NCBI GenBank assembly: GCA_903850425.1
Contig: CAINLR010000181.1
Span: 1-32,053 of the forward strand
DNA: 32,053 nucleotides
DNA from: an uncultured Verrucomicrobia subdivision 3 bacterium
GTDB lineage: Bacteria; Verrucomicrobiota; Verrucomicrobiia; Limisphaerales; UBA11358
Direction: 5' to 3'
The notes beneath the pieces are model-generated. The model saw only the letters and a list, made by a program, of their open reading frames with translations, searched no databases and was not told the origin of the DNA. Below are positions 8,280 to 29,918 of the stretch, piece after piece; the stretch's first letter is position 1, and every line of letters starts with the position of its first letter. The position numbers and the translations under genes are program-made.

Positions 8280-8343
8280 GTAGCAGTCGTGATCATGAGG
8301 CTCAAATATCTCAAATAAGAGCCTCCTCACGTCGGGGAGCTAC
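8280..8343. repeat. Small inverted-repeat element, intergenic copy (64 bases)
   Basis: Left end GTAGCAGTCGTGATCATGAG continues to GGCTC; the right end, read on the other strand, begins GTAGCTCCCCGACGTGAGG and also ends in GGCTC. The arms are 24 and 25 bases and share both termini, with an AT-rich 15-base core. It lies 7 bases after the oxidoreductase stop. Related ends occur inside lpxB and an ABC permease gene. Here it may fold as a hairpin at the end of the transcript. Confidence 0.75.
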
Positions 8344-9440: not shown

Positions 9441-9962
9441 ATGGTTTCCGCCGCGCTCATTGAAGTGATCCGTAAACAATACAGGTTGTCCTGGAATGGA
9501 ATTCATGGGGCTAGCCATTGGGCCAGAGTTCTAGAAAACGGCTTGAAACTCGCTGAACGAACCGGAGCAAATAGAAAAGTGGTTGAATTATTTGCCGTAT
9601 TCCATGATGCGTGCCGCACAAACGATGATTGGGATGAAGGGCATGGTAGTCGTGGAGCAGCACTCGCCGGTTCGCTTCGTGGAAAATATTTTGATTTGGC
9701 AGAGGAAGATTTCACTGCATTGCAAGTTGCCTGCCGCCTGCACACTGAAGGTATCACGCAAGGAGAGGTCACGGTAATAACTTGCTGGGATGCAGACCGG
9801 CTTGATTTGGGTCGCGTCGGTATTGAACCCAATAGAGACCGTCTTTGCACTAACGCGGCCAAACCGCCTGAACTCTTTGAGTGGGCAAACACTCGTGCTT
9901 GCAGCGAGTTTATTCCACACTTTGTTCAGACACAATGGATGAGATCTACAGTTTCCGTTTGA
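9441..9962 (+). CDS. Small HD-domain protein, putative metal-dependent phosphohydrolase
   Basis: A 173-residue protein with the residue pattern of HD-domain phosphohydrolases: His22/His26 (IHGASHWARV), the His55-Asp56 pair (VFHDACR), His101 (RLHTEG) and Asp117/Asp119 (CWDADRLD). The natural substrate is unknown. It starts 4 bases after the upstream oxidoreductase and its TGA overlaps the ATG of lpxB by one base (TGATG), so it is expected to be translated with lpxB. By eye its base composition is clearly lower in GC than both neighbours, suggesting a recent acquisition inserted into an older oxidoreductase-lpxB pair. An effect on lipid A synthesis is possible only by location. Confidence 0.75.
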   Translation: MVSAALIEVIRKQYRLSWNGIHGASHWARVLENGLKLAERTGANRKVVELFAVFHDACRTNDDWDEGHGSRGAALAGSLRGKYFDLAEEDFTALQVACRLHTEGITQGEVTVITCWDADRLDLGRVGIEPNRDRLCTNAAKPPELFEWANTRACSEFIPHFVQTQWMRSTVSV

Positions 9963-11221
9963 TGAAACCGAAGACTTTCATGCTGATCGCCGGGGAGACG
10001 AGCGGGGATTTGCTCGCGGCGGAACTGGTCGCCGCGTTGCGCGAGCAATGTTCCATCCTCCATCCGTCTTCCGCTCCGGTCTTCTTTGGCGCGGGCGGCG
10101 GGAAGATGGCGGCGGCGGGCGTGGATCTGGCGTTTGACCTGACGCAGCACTCCGTCATCGGCATCACGGATGTGCTGAAAAAATATTTCAAGTTCCGCCA
10201 GTTGTTCCATCAACTGCTGGCCCTGGCCATTGAGCGCAAGCCGGACGTGGTCATCGGCATTGATTTTGGCGGGTTCAACCTGCGCTTTGGTCAGGCGGTC
10301 AAACACTACATCCGCGAAAATCCGTTTGTGAATTGGAATCCTAAAATCGTGCAGTTTGTCTCGCCGCAAGTCTGGGCGTCGCGTCCGGGCCGCGCGGACA
10401 AGCTGGCGCGCGACTACGATCTGCTCCTGAGCATTTTCCCATTCGAGAAAGACTGGTATGCCCAGCGCGTGCCCAAGCTGCGGGTGGAGTTTGTGGGGCA
10501 TCCGATGATCGGGCGATTTGCGAATGACGATTTATTACCTGCGCGCCGCACTTCTGAAGCTGGTAGCAGCCGCGGTAACGAGGGTCAAATTGAAATCGGA
10601 AATCGGAAATTCGAGATCGGAAATAAGTTAGAGACTCCTCCCGTCGTCGCCTACAAGAGTATTTTACTGCTGCCGGGCAGCCGCAAGAGCGAACTGCAGC
10701 GGCATTTGCCGGTGATGCTGGCGGCAGTGAAGAGCATTCAGGAAAAATTGCCGGCGGCGAAGGTGAAAATGGTTTTGCCCAACCCGGCCCTGGTGCCGCT
10801 GGCACAATCACTCGGCGCGAATGTGGAAATCCAAATCGGTGAACTGCCGTGGGCGCTGACGGAATCGGATGTCGCCATCGCCTCGACCGGCACCGTGACG
10901 ATGGAGTGCGCGTTCTTCGGCGTGCCGACGGTGACGCTCTACAAAACCTCGTGGCTTACTTATCAAATCGCCCGGCGCATCGTGACGGTAAAATCACTGA
11001 CGATGCCGAACCTGCTCGCCGGCGAACCGGTTTATCCAGAATTCATCCAGAACGACGCGACGCCGGAAAATCTCGCGCGGGCGGCGCTGGCATTGTTGCA
11101 AGATCCCATCCGCCGCGAAATCATCAAGGTGCAACTGGCAAAAATCATCTTGTCGCTCGGCGAACCCGGCGCGGCGGGACGCGCGGCCGCAGCGGTGTTG
11201 AGTCTGCTCCCCAGCATCTGA
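9962..11221 (+). CDS. lpxB: Lipid-A-disaccharide synthase, with an in-frame repeat insertion
   Basis: A 419-residue GT19 glycosyltransferase that joins UDP-2,3-diacylglucosamine and lipid X to the lipid A disaccharide at the inner face of the inner membrane. Family signatures are LIAGETSGDLLAAELV at 8-23, IGIDFGGFNLRF at 98-109, FVSPQVWASRPGR at 132-144, LLLPGSRKSEL from 235 and TMPNLLAGEPVYPEF near the end. It is longer than the E. coli enzyme (382 residues), largely because residues about 201-231 come from a mobile inverted-repeat element. This sits between the N-terminal lobe and the LLPGSR segment and is probably a surface loop. The start at 9962 gives MKPKTFMLIAGE; an ATG at 9935 is an alternative. 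It is coupled to the HD gene by TGATG. Confidence 0.93.
   Translation: MKPKTFMLIAGETSGDLLAAELVAALREQCSILHPSSAPVFFGAGGGKMAAAGVDLAFDLTQHSVIGITDVLKKYFKFRQLFHQLLALAIERKPDVVIGIDFGGFNLRFGQAVKHYIRENPFVNWNPKIVQFVSPQVWASRPGRADKLARDYDLLLSIFPFEKDWYAQRVPKLRVEFVGHPMIGRFANDDLLPARRTSEAGSSRGNEGQIEIGNRKFEIGNKLETPPVVAYKSILLLPGSRKSELQRHLPVMLAAVKSIQEKLPAAKVKMVLPNPALVPLAQSLGANVEIQIGELPWALTESDVAIASTGTVTMECAFFGVPTVTLYKTSWLTYQIARRIVTVKSLTMPNLLAGEPVYPEFIQNDATPENLARAALALLQDPIRREIIKVQLAKIILSLGEPGAAGRAAAAVLSLLPSI
10563..10654. repeat. Small inverted-repeat element inserted in frame in lpxB (92 bases)
   Basis: The left end is GTAGCAGCCGCGGTAACGAG plus GGTC; the right end on the other strand begins GTAGGCGACGACGGGAGGAG and ends TCTC. 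The core holds three near copies of ATCGGAAAT and is AT-rich, unlike lpxB. Read with the gene it encodes SSRGNEGQIEIGNRKFEIGN and the residues after it, a stretch I would not expect in LpxB. The reading frame is kept. The left end encodes SSRGNEG, matching SHRGNDA encoded by the copy in the ABC permease. Confidence 0.75.
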
Positions 11222-13936: not shown

Positions 13937-14260
13937 GCAAGCGCCCAGTCGCCGCAAAGGAATGCGGCGGAAGGCCACCGCAGTCCGGAACGCTGGCGCT
14001 TTGGGCGGAGATGGAACGGCCGCCGCCGCGTTGCCGGGTTATTCACACGAACTACACGAAAACTGAAACCCGAAAGGTCAGCTTCAGCTTGTGCCCGCTT
14101 TCGTGTGTTTTGTTTATCTCGGGGTTAAAATTTCCCTCGTGCCACTGGCCAGGTGGGAAATCGCGTCTGGCGGGCGCGGACAATGATCGGCGTTATTTCC
14201 AAATCAGCCGGCCGGTGCCGCCGGGCAGTTGGATTTCATTGTGGCCACTCCCATGGCGAG
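13937..14260. other. Gene-free stretch with hairpins and a dispersed repeat
   Basis: Downstream of both convergent neighbours. It contains a hairpin, CGCCGC at 13950-13955 pairing with GCGGCG at 13964-13969, then GC-rich sequence with several short inverted repeats, and an AT-richer inverted repeat at 14039-14129. I see no coding sequence and no clear U-tract terminator. Confidence 0.5.
14039..14129. repeat. Dispersed CGTGTGTTTTGT inverted repeat, copy 1
   Basis: The left arm has ATTCACACGAACTACACGAA and the right arm TTTCGTGTGTTTTGTTTATC followed by TCGGGGTTAAAA; the right arm on the other strand reads TTTTAACCCCGA and on into ACAAAACACACG. The right arm shares the 15-mer TTTCGTGTGTTTTGT with the repeat at 29834-29895, so these are two copies of one family. 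Confidence 0.6.
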
Positions 14261-23060: not shown

Positions 23061-24194
23061 TCAGTTTCGAAAAAAACGCGCCGCCAACAGATTCGCCACG
23101 GCGCCGAAAGCGCCCAGCACCGCCAGCGGCACCAGCACGGCCGCGAACCCGCTGCCGAAGCTGATGAGTTGATGCAGCGCTTGCAACGCCCAACCGGTGG
23201 GCGTGCCGAGCGAGATGGTCTTCATCAGCGGCGGACCGATTTCCAGCGGCCACCAGCAGCCGCCAAGCGCGGCCATGAGCAGGCTGGCCAGCACGCAGAT
23301 TCCCGTCACACGATCCTCGGCGGCGCTTAACGACCCGACCAACACGCCGAGCGAGCCGGCCACCCACGCGAAGACCACCAACGTCAGCGCAACGGCGGGC
23401 AGGTTCGCGCCGAGGTTGACGTGGAAAAGCCATTTGCCGACGGCGAGGAAAAACAGAATCTGCACCACGCCGAGCAGCATGAGCCCGTAGATTTTGCCCA
23501 TGACCAGTTCAAGGCGCGTCACCGGATGCACCATGAGCCGTTTGAGCACGCCGTTCCGCCGTTCCGCCGCGATGGTATTTCCGCCGAAAATCAGCAGGTT
23601 CATCATCAGATACATGACCAGATTTCCGGGCAGCGAGAAATTGAAGCCGGACGGCACCGGTTTTCGGCCGGCGAACTTCGCGTTGAGGCTCACGGGATTG
23701 GTCCTAGCCATAATGGCGCGCAATGGCGCCTCGGCAAAAGTTCCGCCGGCGTTCGTCTGCGTCGCGGCTTCGAGCAAGTGGCCGTTCATCGCGATCAATG
23801 CGCGGACGAGCCGCACTTCGATGAGCGCAGTGTCGGCCTCGCCGGAATCCTCGCCCTTGAGAAATTGCAGTTGGGTCGGCTTGTATTGCCTCGCGTTGGC
23901 GGTGAAGTTTGCGGGAATGCGGATGACGCGCGCCGCCGTCTCGCGGTTCGTCGGGTCGAGCACCCACAGGTTTTGCGCGCTCAACTCTGCGAGGAAAATG
24001 CGGCCAAGGAAATTGGTATCGGCGTTTTCGATGAGCACGGGCGGCGTGCGGTTGTAGGGCTGGCCGGCTCCGCGATTGGCAAAGCCCATAATGTAAACAA
24101 ACGCCAGCGGCATGGCGAACAGCCAGATGTAGGCGCTCTTGTGCTTGAGGAAAAGCCGCAAGTCCGTGTGGCCGATGTCGAGGATGCGTTTCAT
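23061..24194 (-). CDS. ABC-2 type transporter permease, second subunit
   Basis: A 377-residue permease. The first membrane helix is near residues 20-40 (YIWLFAMPLAFVYIMGF), followed by a large external domain of about 150 residues and five C-terminal helices: NLVMYLMMNLLIFGG, IYGLMLLGVVQILFFLAVG, AVALTLVVFAWVAGSLGVLVG, GICVLASLLMAALGGCWWPLE and GFAAVLVPLAVLGAFGAVA. It contains an ERRNGVLKRL segment typical of ABC-2 permeases. Its ATG overlaps the stop of the first permease by four bases (ATGA). Together with the ATPase it forms an exporter whose substrate is unknown (drug or lipid-type exporters are common). The frame is open upstream within the other permease gene; the ATG of MKRILDIGHTDLRLF is preferred. 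Confidence 0.85.
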   Translation of the reverse strand: MKRILDIGHTDLRLFLKHKSAYIWLFAMPLAFVYIMGFANRGAGQPYNRTPPVLIENADTNFLGRIFLAELSAQNLWVLDPTNRETAARVIRIPANFTANARQYKPTQLQFLKGEDSGEADTALIEVRLVRALIAMNGHLLEAATQTNAGGTFAEAPLRAIMARTNPVSLNAKFAGRKPVPSGFNFSLPGNLVMYLMMNLLIFGGNTIAAERRNGVLKRLMVHPVTRLELVMGKIYGLMLLGVVQILFFLAVGKWLFHVNLGANLPAVALTLVVFAWVAGSLGVLVGSLSAAEDRVTGICVLASLLMAALGGCWWPLEIGPPLMKTISLGTPTGWALQALHQLISFGSGFAAVLVPLAVLGAFGAVANLLAARFFRN

Positions 24195-25591
24195 GGGCGC
24201 AGACCCGTCTTGAATTTTCGCCGGAACAGCACCGCCGCCAGCGCGGCGAGAACCACACTGCACACCGCCAGCTTGAGCAGGACAACGCCCCAAACGACGC
24301 CCGGGTTGTTGAACTGGAGATTGCGGGTGGCATCCACAAACCAGTTGCTCGGCATCAACGGCGTGATGTGATCGCGGAGGAAGGTCGGCAATTGCCGGGC
24401 TGGAAACGCACAGCCTCCGACCAGTCCCAGCCCCATGCCGGCCATATTGTTCAGCACATTCGCCCGCCGCTCGTCCGGCACCAGCGCCACCAGCAGGGCG
24501 AACAGCGCCGCGACAAAGCAACTGTAGCCCGCAGTGAGGGCAACCAGCGCCAGCGGATTCTGCCAGTGAATCCGAAACACCAGCCCGCCGCCGCCAATCA
24601 GCACCCCGCTGCCCAGCAGCAGCACCACCACCGCGAACATGAGTTTGCCGACGAGGAAAGGCCAGAGCGGCTGGGGCATTGTCTGGTAGCGCTCGAAGGT
24701 GCGCTGGCGCAGCTCGCGATGCAGATCCGTCATCGCATTCTGACCCAGAAAGAGCAGGAACATGCCCGTCATTCCGAGCAGCAGAAACGCGAACGTGCTC
24801 GACCGACCGCTGGCTTTGGCTTGGGCATCGTGCTTTTCCACAGCTTTCACCGCGACCTGATTTGTAGCAGCCGACGGAAGGAGGCTCTGACTGACGCCTG
24901 ACGTCTGGTCGCTGACTTTTGCGTTTGCAATTAGAGCGTCGTTACCACGGTGGCTAAGGTCCGTTTGCGCCACCTCGGACGGGGCTTCTTTCGTGTAGCC
25001 AACCAGCGGTGGATTTATGAATTTTTTCGCGGCTCTTAGTTTGTCGCCGGCGCGTTCGATCAGGAACGAAACCTGGTGGTAATCATCCCTGCCCTCAAAG
25101 ACGGCCTGCCACGCGGGAAATTCTGAATTAAAATTGCGCGAGATGGCGTTCAATGCCGTCACGACCGCACCGAGCAGTTCTTCCAGCACCGCCGGGTGGA
25201 TGGACTCCGCCGGATTTTTGATCAGCTCCAGGCTCACGGGTGCGCGCGCCGTGAGATAATTGCGCATGAAATTGGTCGGGATGATGAGCACCGCGCTGAT
25301 TTTATTGGCGTTGACCTCACGCAACGCATCGGCGCGTTCCATGAAAACCGGCTCGAGATATTTGGCGCCATCGCGCTGATTCGCCGCGCCGCGCAGAAAA
25401 TCGCTCAGCACCGATTTGTCCTCGTCCACCACGGCGAAGCGAATCCGCCCCAGCGCGCCGCCGTCCGCACCGCCCCCGAACACCAGGCCGATGAGCGCGG
25501 TCATCGCCAGTGGCACGATGAGGTTGATGAGCCACGGCAGCGGATTGCGCCACGCGCGCCGTAGGTCTTTGGCGAGGAGGATGGGGAGCAT
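24191..25591 (-). CDS. ABC-2 type transporter permease, first subunit, with in-frame repeat insertion
   Basis: A 466-residue permease with the same plan as its downstream partner: first membrane helix at about 18-40 (LPWLINLIVPLAMTALIGLVFG), a large external domain, then helices from about 266 (TFAFLLLGMTGMFLLFLGQ) including LFAVVVLLLGSGVLIGGGG-like and ALVALTAGYSCFVAALFALLV segments. An LRQRTFERYQTMP stretch is the usual cytoplasmic element. Residues about 212-243 (from DLSHRGNDAL to LLPSAATN) derive from a mobile inverted-repeat element lying just outside the membrane before the second helix, where extra length is probably tolerated. It starts one base before the ATPase stop region and overlaps the second permease, so the three genes form one operon. 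Confidence 0.85.
   Translation of the reverse strand: MLPILLAKDLRRAWRNPLPWLINLIVPLAMTALIGLVFGGGADGGALGRIRFAVVDEDKSVLSDFLRGAANQRDGAKYLEPVFMERADALREVNANKISAVLIIPTNFMRNYLTARAPVSLELIKNPAESIHPAVLEELLGAVVTALNAISRNFNSEFPAWQAVFEGRDDYHQVSFLIERAGDKLRAAKKFINPPLVGYTKEAPSEVAQTDLSHRGNDALIANAKVSDQTSGVSQSLLPSAATNQVAVKAVEKHDAQAKASGRSSTFAFLLLGMTGMFLLFLGQNAMTDLHRELRQRTFERYQTMPQPLWPFLVGKLMFAVVVLLLGSGVLIGGGGLVFRIHWQNPLALVALTAGYSCFVAALFALLVALVPDERRANVLNNMAGMGLGLVGGCAFPARQLPTFLRDHITPLMPSNWFVDATRNLQFNNPGVVWGVVLLKLAVCSVVLAALAAVLFRRKFKTGLRP
24864..24957. repeat. Small inverted-repeat element inserted in frame in an ABC permease gene (94 bases)
   Basis: On the plus strand the left end is GTAGCAGCCGACGGAAGGAG plus GCTC. 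The right end on the other strand is TTAGCCACCGTGGTAACGAC plus GCTC. The core (TGACTGACGCCTGACGTCTG and following bases) is unlike that of the lpxB copy. In the permease frame the TTAGCC end encodes LSHRGNDAL, parallel to SSRGNEG in LpxB. Frame is maintained through the insert. Confidence 0.75.
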
Positions 25592-29833: not shown

Positions 29834-29895
29834 TTCACCACGAAACACACAAAACAGAATTCCCCTTTCGTGTGTTTTGTGTATTTCGTGGTTGA
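29834..29895. repeat. Dispersed CGTGTGTTTTGT inverted repeat, copy 2
   Basis: TTCACCACGAAACACACAAA at 29834-29853 is mirrored by the right arm ending in TATTTCGTGGTTGAA; the right arm on the other strand reads TTCAACCACGAAATACACAA. The unit shares TTTCGTGTGTTTTGT with the repeat at 14039-14129. It lies between the kinase-like and phosphatase genes and could fold in their shared transcript. Confidence 0.7.
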
Positions 29896-29918
29896 AAAAT
29901 AATTTATCCGTTGGTGGT

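Follow-up and report, generated by a model that had tools for sequence, protein, structure and literature searches.

A decayed GTAG-REP dimer lies in frame within lpxB of a subdivision 3 verrucomicrobium, one of twenty recognised protein hosts in its genome

How does an enzyme of an essential type come to carry some 30 residues encoded by what looks like a mobile palindrome? The question is raised by a 32,053-nucleotide stretch of DNA (hereafter the window) from an uncultured Verrucomicrobia subdivision 3 bacterium (contig CAINLR010000181.1, assembly GCA_903850425.1), in which a preliminary description had picked out a 92-base palindromic segment inside lpxB, a gene of lipid A synthesis. The segment exists as claimed, and its ends match those of two other segments of the window, at 24864-24957 and 8280-8343. 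The features concerned are the following.

9962..11221, forward strand: lpxB host gene (Pfam LpxB, E 3e-69); the open reading frame runs from 9881, and the start at 9962 (MKPKTFML) was picked via orthologs
10563..10654, forward strand: decayed GTAG-REP inverted dimer in the lpxB frame, coding for residues 201-232 of the 419-aa protein
10563..10586, forward strand: left arm, a REP unit with its GTAG tag outside, 3 mismatches from the family consensus
10587..10630, forward strand: AT-rich core with a heptamer array, (GAAATCG)n, recognised by GC content and an array search
10631..10654, reverse strand: right arm, an inverted and decayed REP unit, 5 mismatches from the consensus
24864..24957, reverse strand: second in-frame copy, in an ABC-2 permease, recognised by its end match; a shorter, element-free homolog is present in the relative G016 (L260)
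24191..25591, reverse strand: ABC-2 type permease gene hosting that second copy (Pfam ABC2_membrane_3 spans residues 22-453)
8280..8343, forward strand: intergenic family copy between two open reading frames, recognised by its end match; it folds better than its shuffles (z -2.22)

Besides its Pfam match, the host protein scores above the cut-off of TIGR00215, and its best match among solved structures, by sequence and by fold, is LpxB 5w8s. A Foldseek comparison of its model with solved LpxB gave an E value of 3.9e-21 and a poor global superposition (rmsd about 21), which is taken to mean that the two domains may be placed differently. The gene is single-copy, with no other LpxB match in the source genome. 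Within the open reading frame at 9881-11221 (446 aa) the segment codes in frame for residues 228-259; these become residues 201-232 when counted from the start at 9962, which was chosen by ortholog alignment (55 sequences), and the insert of about 30 residues reported earlier is thereby confirmed. The AT-rich, repeat-bearing core was also described correctly as unlike its gene, since its GC content is 0.318 compared to 0.592 in the remaining lpxB. Arrays of the core heptamer were found in five further genomic places (control 0), one of which sits in another copy of the family, on C97. Elsewhere in the window, positions 14095-14130 and 29862-29897 form a 36-base direct repeat that is 86% identical.

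The segment is one of many. When the whole of it was used as the query, the source genome gave 10 places including itself, and only one other match was full-length (C97:2299-2390, 77%, E 1.7e-10). A search for the end motif with at most 3 mismatches, as the preliminary description had proposed, turned up many other copies: 88 matches (45 forward, 43 reverse), all of them recovered in loci fetched from the genome, compared to 0 in the reversed control. With up to 8 mismatches permitted in the second arm, these matches resolve into 53 inverted pairs of 58-97 nt (median 72) and 13 single arms, whose best partners had 10-12 mismatches. The copy at 8280-8343 exceeds the mismatch limit and was left out, so 53 dimers is a lower bound. 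The end motif also occurs in 46 of the 49 same-genus genomes, with 0-154 matches per genome and 0-3 in the controls. The reading of 10563-10654 as one copy, now decayed, of a palindromic repeat dispersed in the genome holds.

The word palindromic fits the family better than it fits the lpxB copy. In lpxB, only 14 of the 24 arm positions agree, and the segment folds no better than its shuffles (z +1.03); the permease copy, like the intergenic one, does fold better (z -2.49 and -2.22, respectively). The arm consensus is GTAGCAGCCGACGTGAGGAGGCTC. Over 106 arms, the GTAG tag at positions 1-4 is G in 100, T in 97, A in 88 and G in 105, and behind it positions 6-12 pair with positions 17-23 (7 pairs). 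In the 91 distinct arms in which this hairpin was tested, 69.1% of cells are paired compared to 60.2 in shuffles, two-sided changes number 45 cells compared to 14.2 (0 of 500 shuffles were as high), and the covariation score is 0.214 compared to 0.068 when shuffled and 0.054 for the best slid control. The number of pairs having a two-sided change, 6, is less decisive, being reached by 40 of 500 shuffles. Most arms carry a mismatch bulge at pairs 10-19 and 11-18; taken by itself, the consensus arm has no folding advantage over its shuffles (z -0.15), and the TCGGCT-type arm does have one (z -4.02). The covariation shows each arm to be built like a REP unit, with an unpaired GTAG tag followed by a small hairpin. 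In the dimers, two such units face each other with GTAG outermost. Three traits of the GTAG-REP super-family are present, namely an unpaired GTAG end tag, a short stem-loop and many copies, including head-to-head dimers.

One could consider that slippage at short tandem repeats has simply altered the length of the disordered LpxB linker and that its likeness to dispersed palindromes is incidental. The lpxB core is, after all, a heptamer array, and several further LpxB linkers carry heptamer arrays as well, of which the ATTTACG type is dispersed in 35 of the 49 genomes. However, the 24-base ends are common to dozens of places and to 19 other proteins, with covariation in their hairpins, and slippage does not create shared ends of this kind. 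Plain drift of the linker was rejected on these grounds and is very improbable.

What the segment means for the protein can be judged from a structural model, onto which the preliminary description had suggested mapping the loop. AlphaFold2, run on the 55-sequence LpxB alignment, gave a mean pLDDT of 89.1. The only stretches of at least three residues with a pLDDT below 50 are 203-212 and 214-227; they fall within the insert, between a helix (193-200) and a strand (233-237). By this prediction, the insert lengthens the linker between the two domains with disordered sequence. None of the invariant columns of the alignment lies inside it.

An LpxB match is present in 48 of the 49 same-genus genomes, and the alignment of these orthologs makes clear that the loop is not universal. 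With the many other copies in the genome, this means that neither of the two outcomes named in the preliminary description as refuting its reading was observed. Between the motifs FVGHPM and LPGSR, the linker is 32-44 aa long in 42 of the 48 and 65 aa in the window (the linker of G046, whose motif differs at one residue, was read by eye). The family is carried by six of the 48, that is, by the window and by G008, G012, G021, G036 and G047, in which the linker measures 39-62 aa. The net gain in the window is about 24 aa over the 41-aa class compared to about 31 for the element, and an exact empty site in lpxB cannot be placed because the linkers diverge. Two of the 48, G003 and G006, have an unrelated dispersed palindrome at the same place, with 28 and 33 matches in those genomes, none in 31 of the 49 and 0 in the controls. 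A comparison was also made of 80 named LpxB loci, 77 of which could be parsed, 36 of these repeating same-genus sequences. In another lineage, L143, L149 and L150 have GTAG-type arms in LpxB that are read in a different frame.

On a quick LpxB tree (89 rows, linker left out), parsimony assigns six changes to the in-genus state, one to the other-frame state and two to the other palindrome. AU tests rejected none of the five one-clade groupings (p 0.219-0.819), including a single in-genus clade for the insert (p 0.366), and three of the constrained trees scored above the free tree. This means that the LpxB tree does not fix the number of insertion events. The argument that LpxB may have been entered independently rests on the different frame in another lineage and on the unrelated DNA at the same site.

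The in-frame state had been presented as a contrast between lpxB and the other copies. It stands for lpxB, but the copy at 24864-24957 is also in frame, in the ABC-2 permease, and the same is true elsewhere in the genome. Among the 53 dimers, 23 lie in an open reading frame with 60 or more stop-free codons to either side of them, and 20 of these 23 frames belong to recognised families; the other three (C137:14114, C195:3616 and C141:211402) gave no family match and were dropped. The recognised hosts are XseA, a DinB/DnaE-type fusion, a peptidase U32, a UDG-family protein, a GcvT/YgfZ-like protein, a GH43-like protein, an HpnG-like phosphorylase, PdxJ, TilS, HrpB, a sugar-binding/nucleotide-binding kinase-like protein (C18), LpxB, the ABC-2 permease, XdhC, a pyridine nucleotide-disulphide oxidoreductase, a protein kinase, a MurQ-like protein, a DNA photolyase, a class-III aminotransferase and XdhB. 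For the UDG, GH43-like and kinase hosts, the best family match spans one side only. In the fusion (L011:3-2702, C120), a single open reading frame joins a DinB-type to a DnaE-type polymerase, with the REP dimer at the junction, and a homologous open frame without the repeat is found in G016 (L242). Lipid A synthesis, once proposed as a notable target, is not singled out: LpxB is only one of the 20 recognised hosts, and a special link to lipid A was rejected.

Homologs of the 20 hosts were sought in four relatives, aligned and scanned for arms at the DNA level. At least one relative has the arm pair in 8 of the 20 proteins (XseA, U32, the HpnG-like protein, HrpB, the C18 kinase-like protein, LpxB, the aminotransferase and XdhB), and 0 of 300 shuffled stretches passed the same test; a count by eye gave 11 of 20, and the figure used is that of the DNA test. 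Two sites, in YgfZ (L215) and the MurQ-like protein (L216), resemble shared copies that have decayed, and homologs of the kinase retain single arms; none of these three is counted among the eight. For 17 of the 20 proteins, at least one relative aligns on both sides of the site without an arm pair (for LpxB, this is G016). Three hosts are exceptions: the C18 kinase-like protein, XdhB, and the protein kinase, in whose homologs single arms persist. Thirteen of the 17 show a visibly shorter site in alignments judged by eye.

Could the loop be a selected and functional part of LpxB, built from the repeat and serving regulation or membrane docking? The insert is kept open in frame in six same-genus genomes, and 17 of the 20 coding copies use the frame that gives a hydrophilic peptide (frame 2 of the left arm; frame 0 is used in three and the TAG-bearing frame in none). 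However, the frame bias is accounted for, at least in part, by stops: one frame is closed by the TAG of the arm, and in many copies another is closed by a spacer such as CTCTGACT. Nor is an open frame more available than in shuffles: selection for protein-compatible elements was not apparent in the non-coding copies, 32 of 33 having an open frame compared to 31.4 expected. In addition, 42 of the 48 same-genus LpxB proteins do without the insert, unrelated sequences fill the site, and the lpxB copy is decaying as a palindrome, all of which makes a functional loop highly unlikely. Some bacterial inserts in conserved genes do get removed, but an intron- or intein-like removal from RNA or protein that leaves LpxB unchanged has no direct support counted in its favor and was rejected with next to no chance of being right, since the segment reads through in frame without a stop, inspection by eye showed nothing typical of an intron or intein, and the family occurs between genes as well.

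A mobile dimer lodged in a tolerant linker is consistent with what relatives carry at several of these sites. As an example, the PdxJ site of G021 holds a perfect 25-base palindrome and its YgfZ site a relative of the same palindrome, the arm of which has 30 matches in G021 and none in the source genome (controls 0). The aminotransferase site of G036 holds the second palindrome family, as seen in LpxB of G003 and G006. Dispersed unrelated families are thus found at the same loop in four proteins: LpxB, PdxJ, YgfZ and the class-III aminotransferase. A U32 homolog has yet another palindrome, one that begins with GTAG. The simplest reading is that few loops tolerate palindromic inserts, and the presence of unrelated palindromes at the same sites suggests that these are permissive loops where inserts come and go.

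Repeats of this kind have been described before. PMC3733652 reports GTAG-tagged REPs, which reach their highest numbers in Opitutus terrae, as well as head-to-head dimers and intragenic REPs, more than half of the latter in dimers or groups that encode 20-30 aa; in one case, recB in two Xanthomonas, different REPs lie at about the same site. The GTAG-REPs of O. terrae, also a verrucomicrobium, are similar to the present family in having an unpaired outer GTAG, a short hairpin, inverted dimers (of 58-97 nt here) and dispersed copies, some of them in frame and encoding 20-30 aa. They differ in that the host here belongs to subdivision 3, several sites are also held by unrelated palindromes and no linked RAYT gene was found; the present arms may or may not be among the families of that paper. 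The likeness to Rickettsia drawn in the preliminary description is sound in part. Palindromes in frame in conserved protein genes are tolerated there too, and PMC2229807 describes Rickettsia RPEs in 19 reading frames and a guanylate kinase that is still active with its insert. The present element, however, is a GTAG-tagged REP pair in a verrucomicrobial host and not a Rickettsia RPE; the tag of RPE-4 and RPE-6 is CGTC, according to PMC3733652. In REPIN/BIME systems with TnpA-REP, as outlined in PMC8266576, two inverted REPs, GTAG and a bulged hairpin are again found, but those elements lie mostly between genes and come with a partner gene for a transposase, which could not be linked to the repeats here. 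By this comparison, the verrucomicrobial repeat is a richer form of the intragenic GTAG-REP dimers already described. A search of the available literature found no paper on a palindromic element in lpxB.

How would such a repeat move? No transposase could be linked to the segment at the loci read, and the earlier term mobile element is best kept in a qualified form: dispersal and the element-free sites in relatives point to mobility. In PMC8266576, REPs are proposed to be moved by Y1 HUH transposases that recognise a GTAG-tagged hairpin. Matches to PF01797 occur in all 13 genomes searched, above the family cut-off in 12 of them. At the 31 loci read, out of 69 Y1 matches listed in 13 draft genomes, no Y1 gene had adjoining arms; at seven of them the flanking sequence does contain an arm, never a close one, and in L277 and L287 this arm is the lpxB insert itself. 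Immediately upstream of lpxB, G047 and G021 (L277, L287) each have a Y1 transposase gene. In G021, two further copies of the lpxB start (KPKTFMLIAG) are seen upstream, as though insertions had duplicated it. No target-site duplication was visible by eye in the flanks of the 53 copies. With Y1 enzymes, no such duplication is expected.

It is thus highly probable that the segment is a non-autonomous mobile GTAG-REP dimer that landed in the linker of lpxB, where it is tolerated, translated and decaying, and that the same has happened in about 20 other proteins. In this history, two GTAG-tagged REP hairpins set head-to-head around a short variable core would form a repeat that spread through the genome and the genus, most likely mobilised in trans by a transposase of the HUH/Y1 (RAYT) type. 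Insertion of one copy would have hit the stretch of lpxB that codes for the linker between two Rossmann domains, and this copy would have been tolerated because the frame stayed open and the linker is disordered by prediction and contains no invariant residue. This copy would now be translated as about 30 residues, with a presumably near-neutral effect on LpxB, while its palindrome decays. About twenty other proteins of the source genome would have taken the same kind of insert, and in relatives unrelated palindromic families would have come to fill some of the same protein sites.

Whole transposases are also seen in frame. In the source genome, L300:31-3672 (query match C4:72542-73444) is a 1214-aa open reading frame for alanyl-tRNA synthetase with an in-frame Y1 (IS200-like) transposase domain; Pfam finds tRNA-synt_2c, tRNA_SAD, DHHA1 and Y1_Tnp in the one frame, and by eye the insert is bounded by 23-base perfect inverted repeats. 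Upstream of the transposase are in-frame tandem repeats reading SPNVGTPSPNVG, in about the same loop that holds the transposase of G046 and G006. In other same-genus genomes, alaS has an in-frame transposase in the same loop (L301, L302, L303 and L305, the insertion in L302 being known from the match alone) or in another loop (L304 and L306). Y1_Tnp reaches the Pfam cut-off in 5 of the 6 alaS open reading frames scanned. In many other genomes the match is confined to the alaS sequence on either side, and they therefore appear element-free there. A PriA-type helicase with an in-frame transposase occurs in four same-genus genomes (L307, L308, L309 and L310), and long direct repeats flank the transposase in L307 and L309, as judged by eye; Pfam scans of L307, L309 and L310 found PriA domains in all three and Y1_Tnp above the cut-off in two. 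These cases suggest that mobile DNA as large as a whole gene can be tolerated in frame. Literature searches on RAYT together with alanyl-tRNA synthetase, and on in-frame transposases, found no paper.

A wider picture can be offered tentatively, with the warning that it may well prove wrong. The clade might host a community of HUH-mobilised palindromes, with bare REP dimers at one extreme and entire transposase genes at the other, all maintained in frame in shared docking loops of essential proteins (LpxB, PdxJ, YgfZ, AlaRS and PriA); unrelated families would replace each other in these loops, and autonomous copies would be translated within the host enzyme.

Most known palindromic inserts of the in-frame kind come from Rickettsia and from some genomes rich in REPs. 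The present clade, with its dozens of related genomes, offers 20 recognisable hosts in one genome, together with unrelated palindromes at the same protein sites in relatives. These findings suggest that conserved enzymes can tolerate small mobile pieces of DNA. It can now be tested whether the inserts are neutral passengers, how they are gained and lost, and where essential enzymes have loops able to take in 20-30 foreign residues, or a whole transposase.
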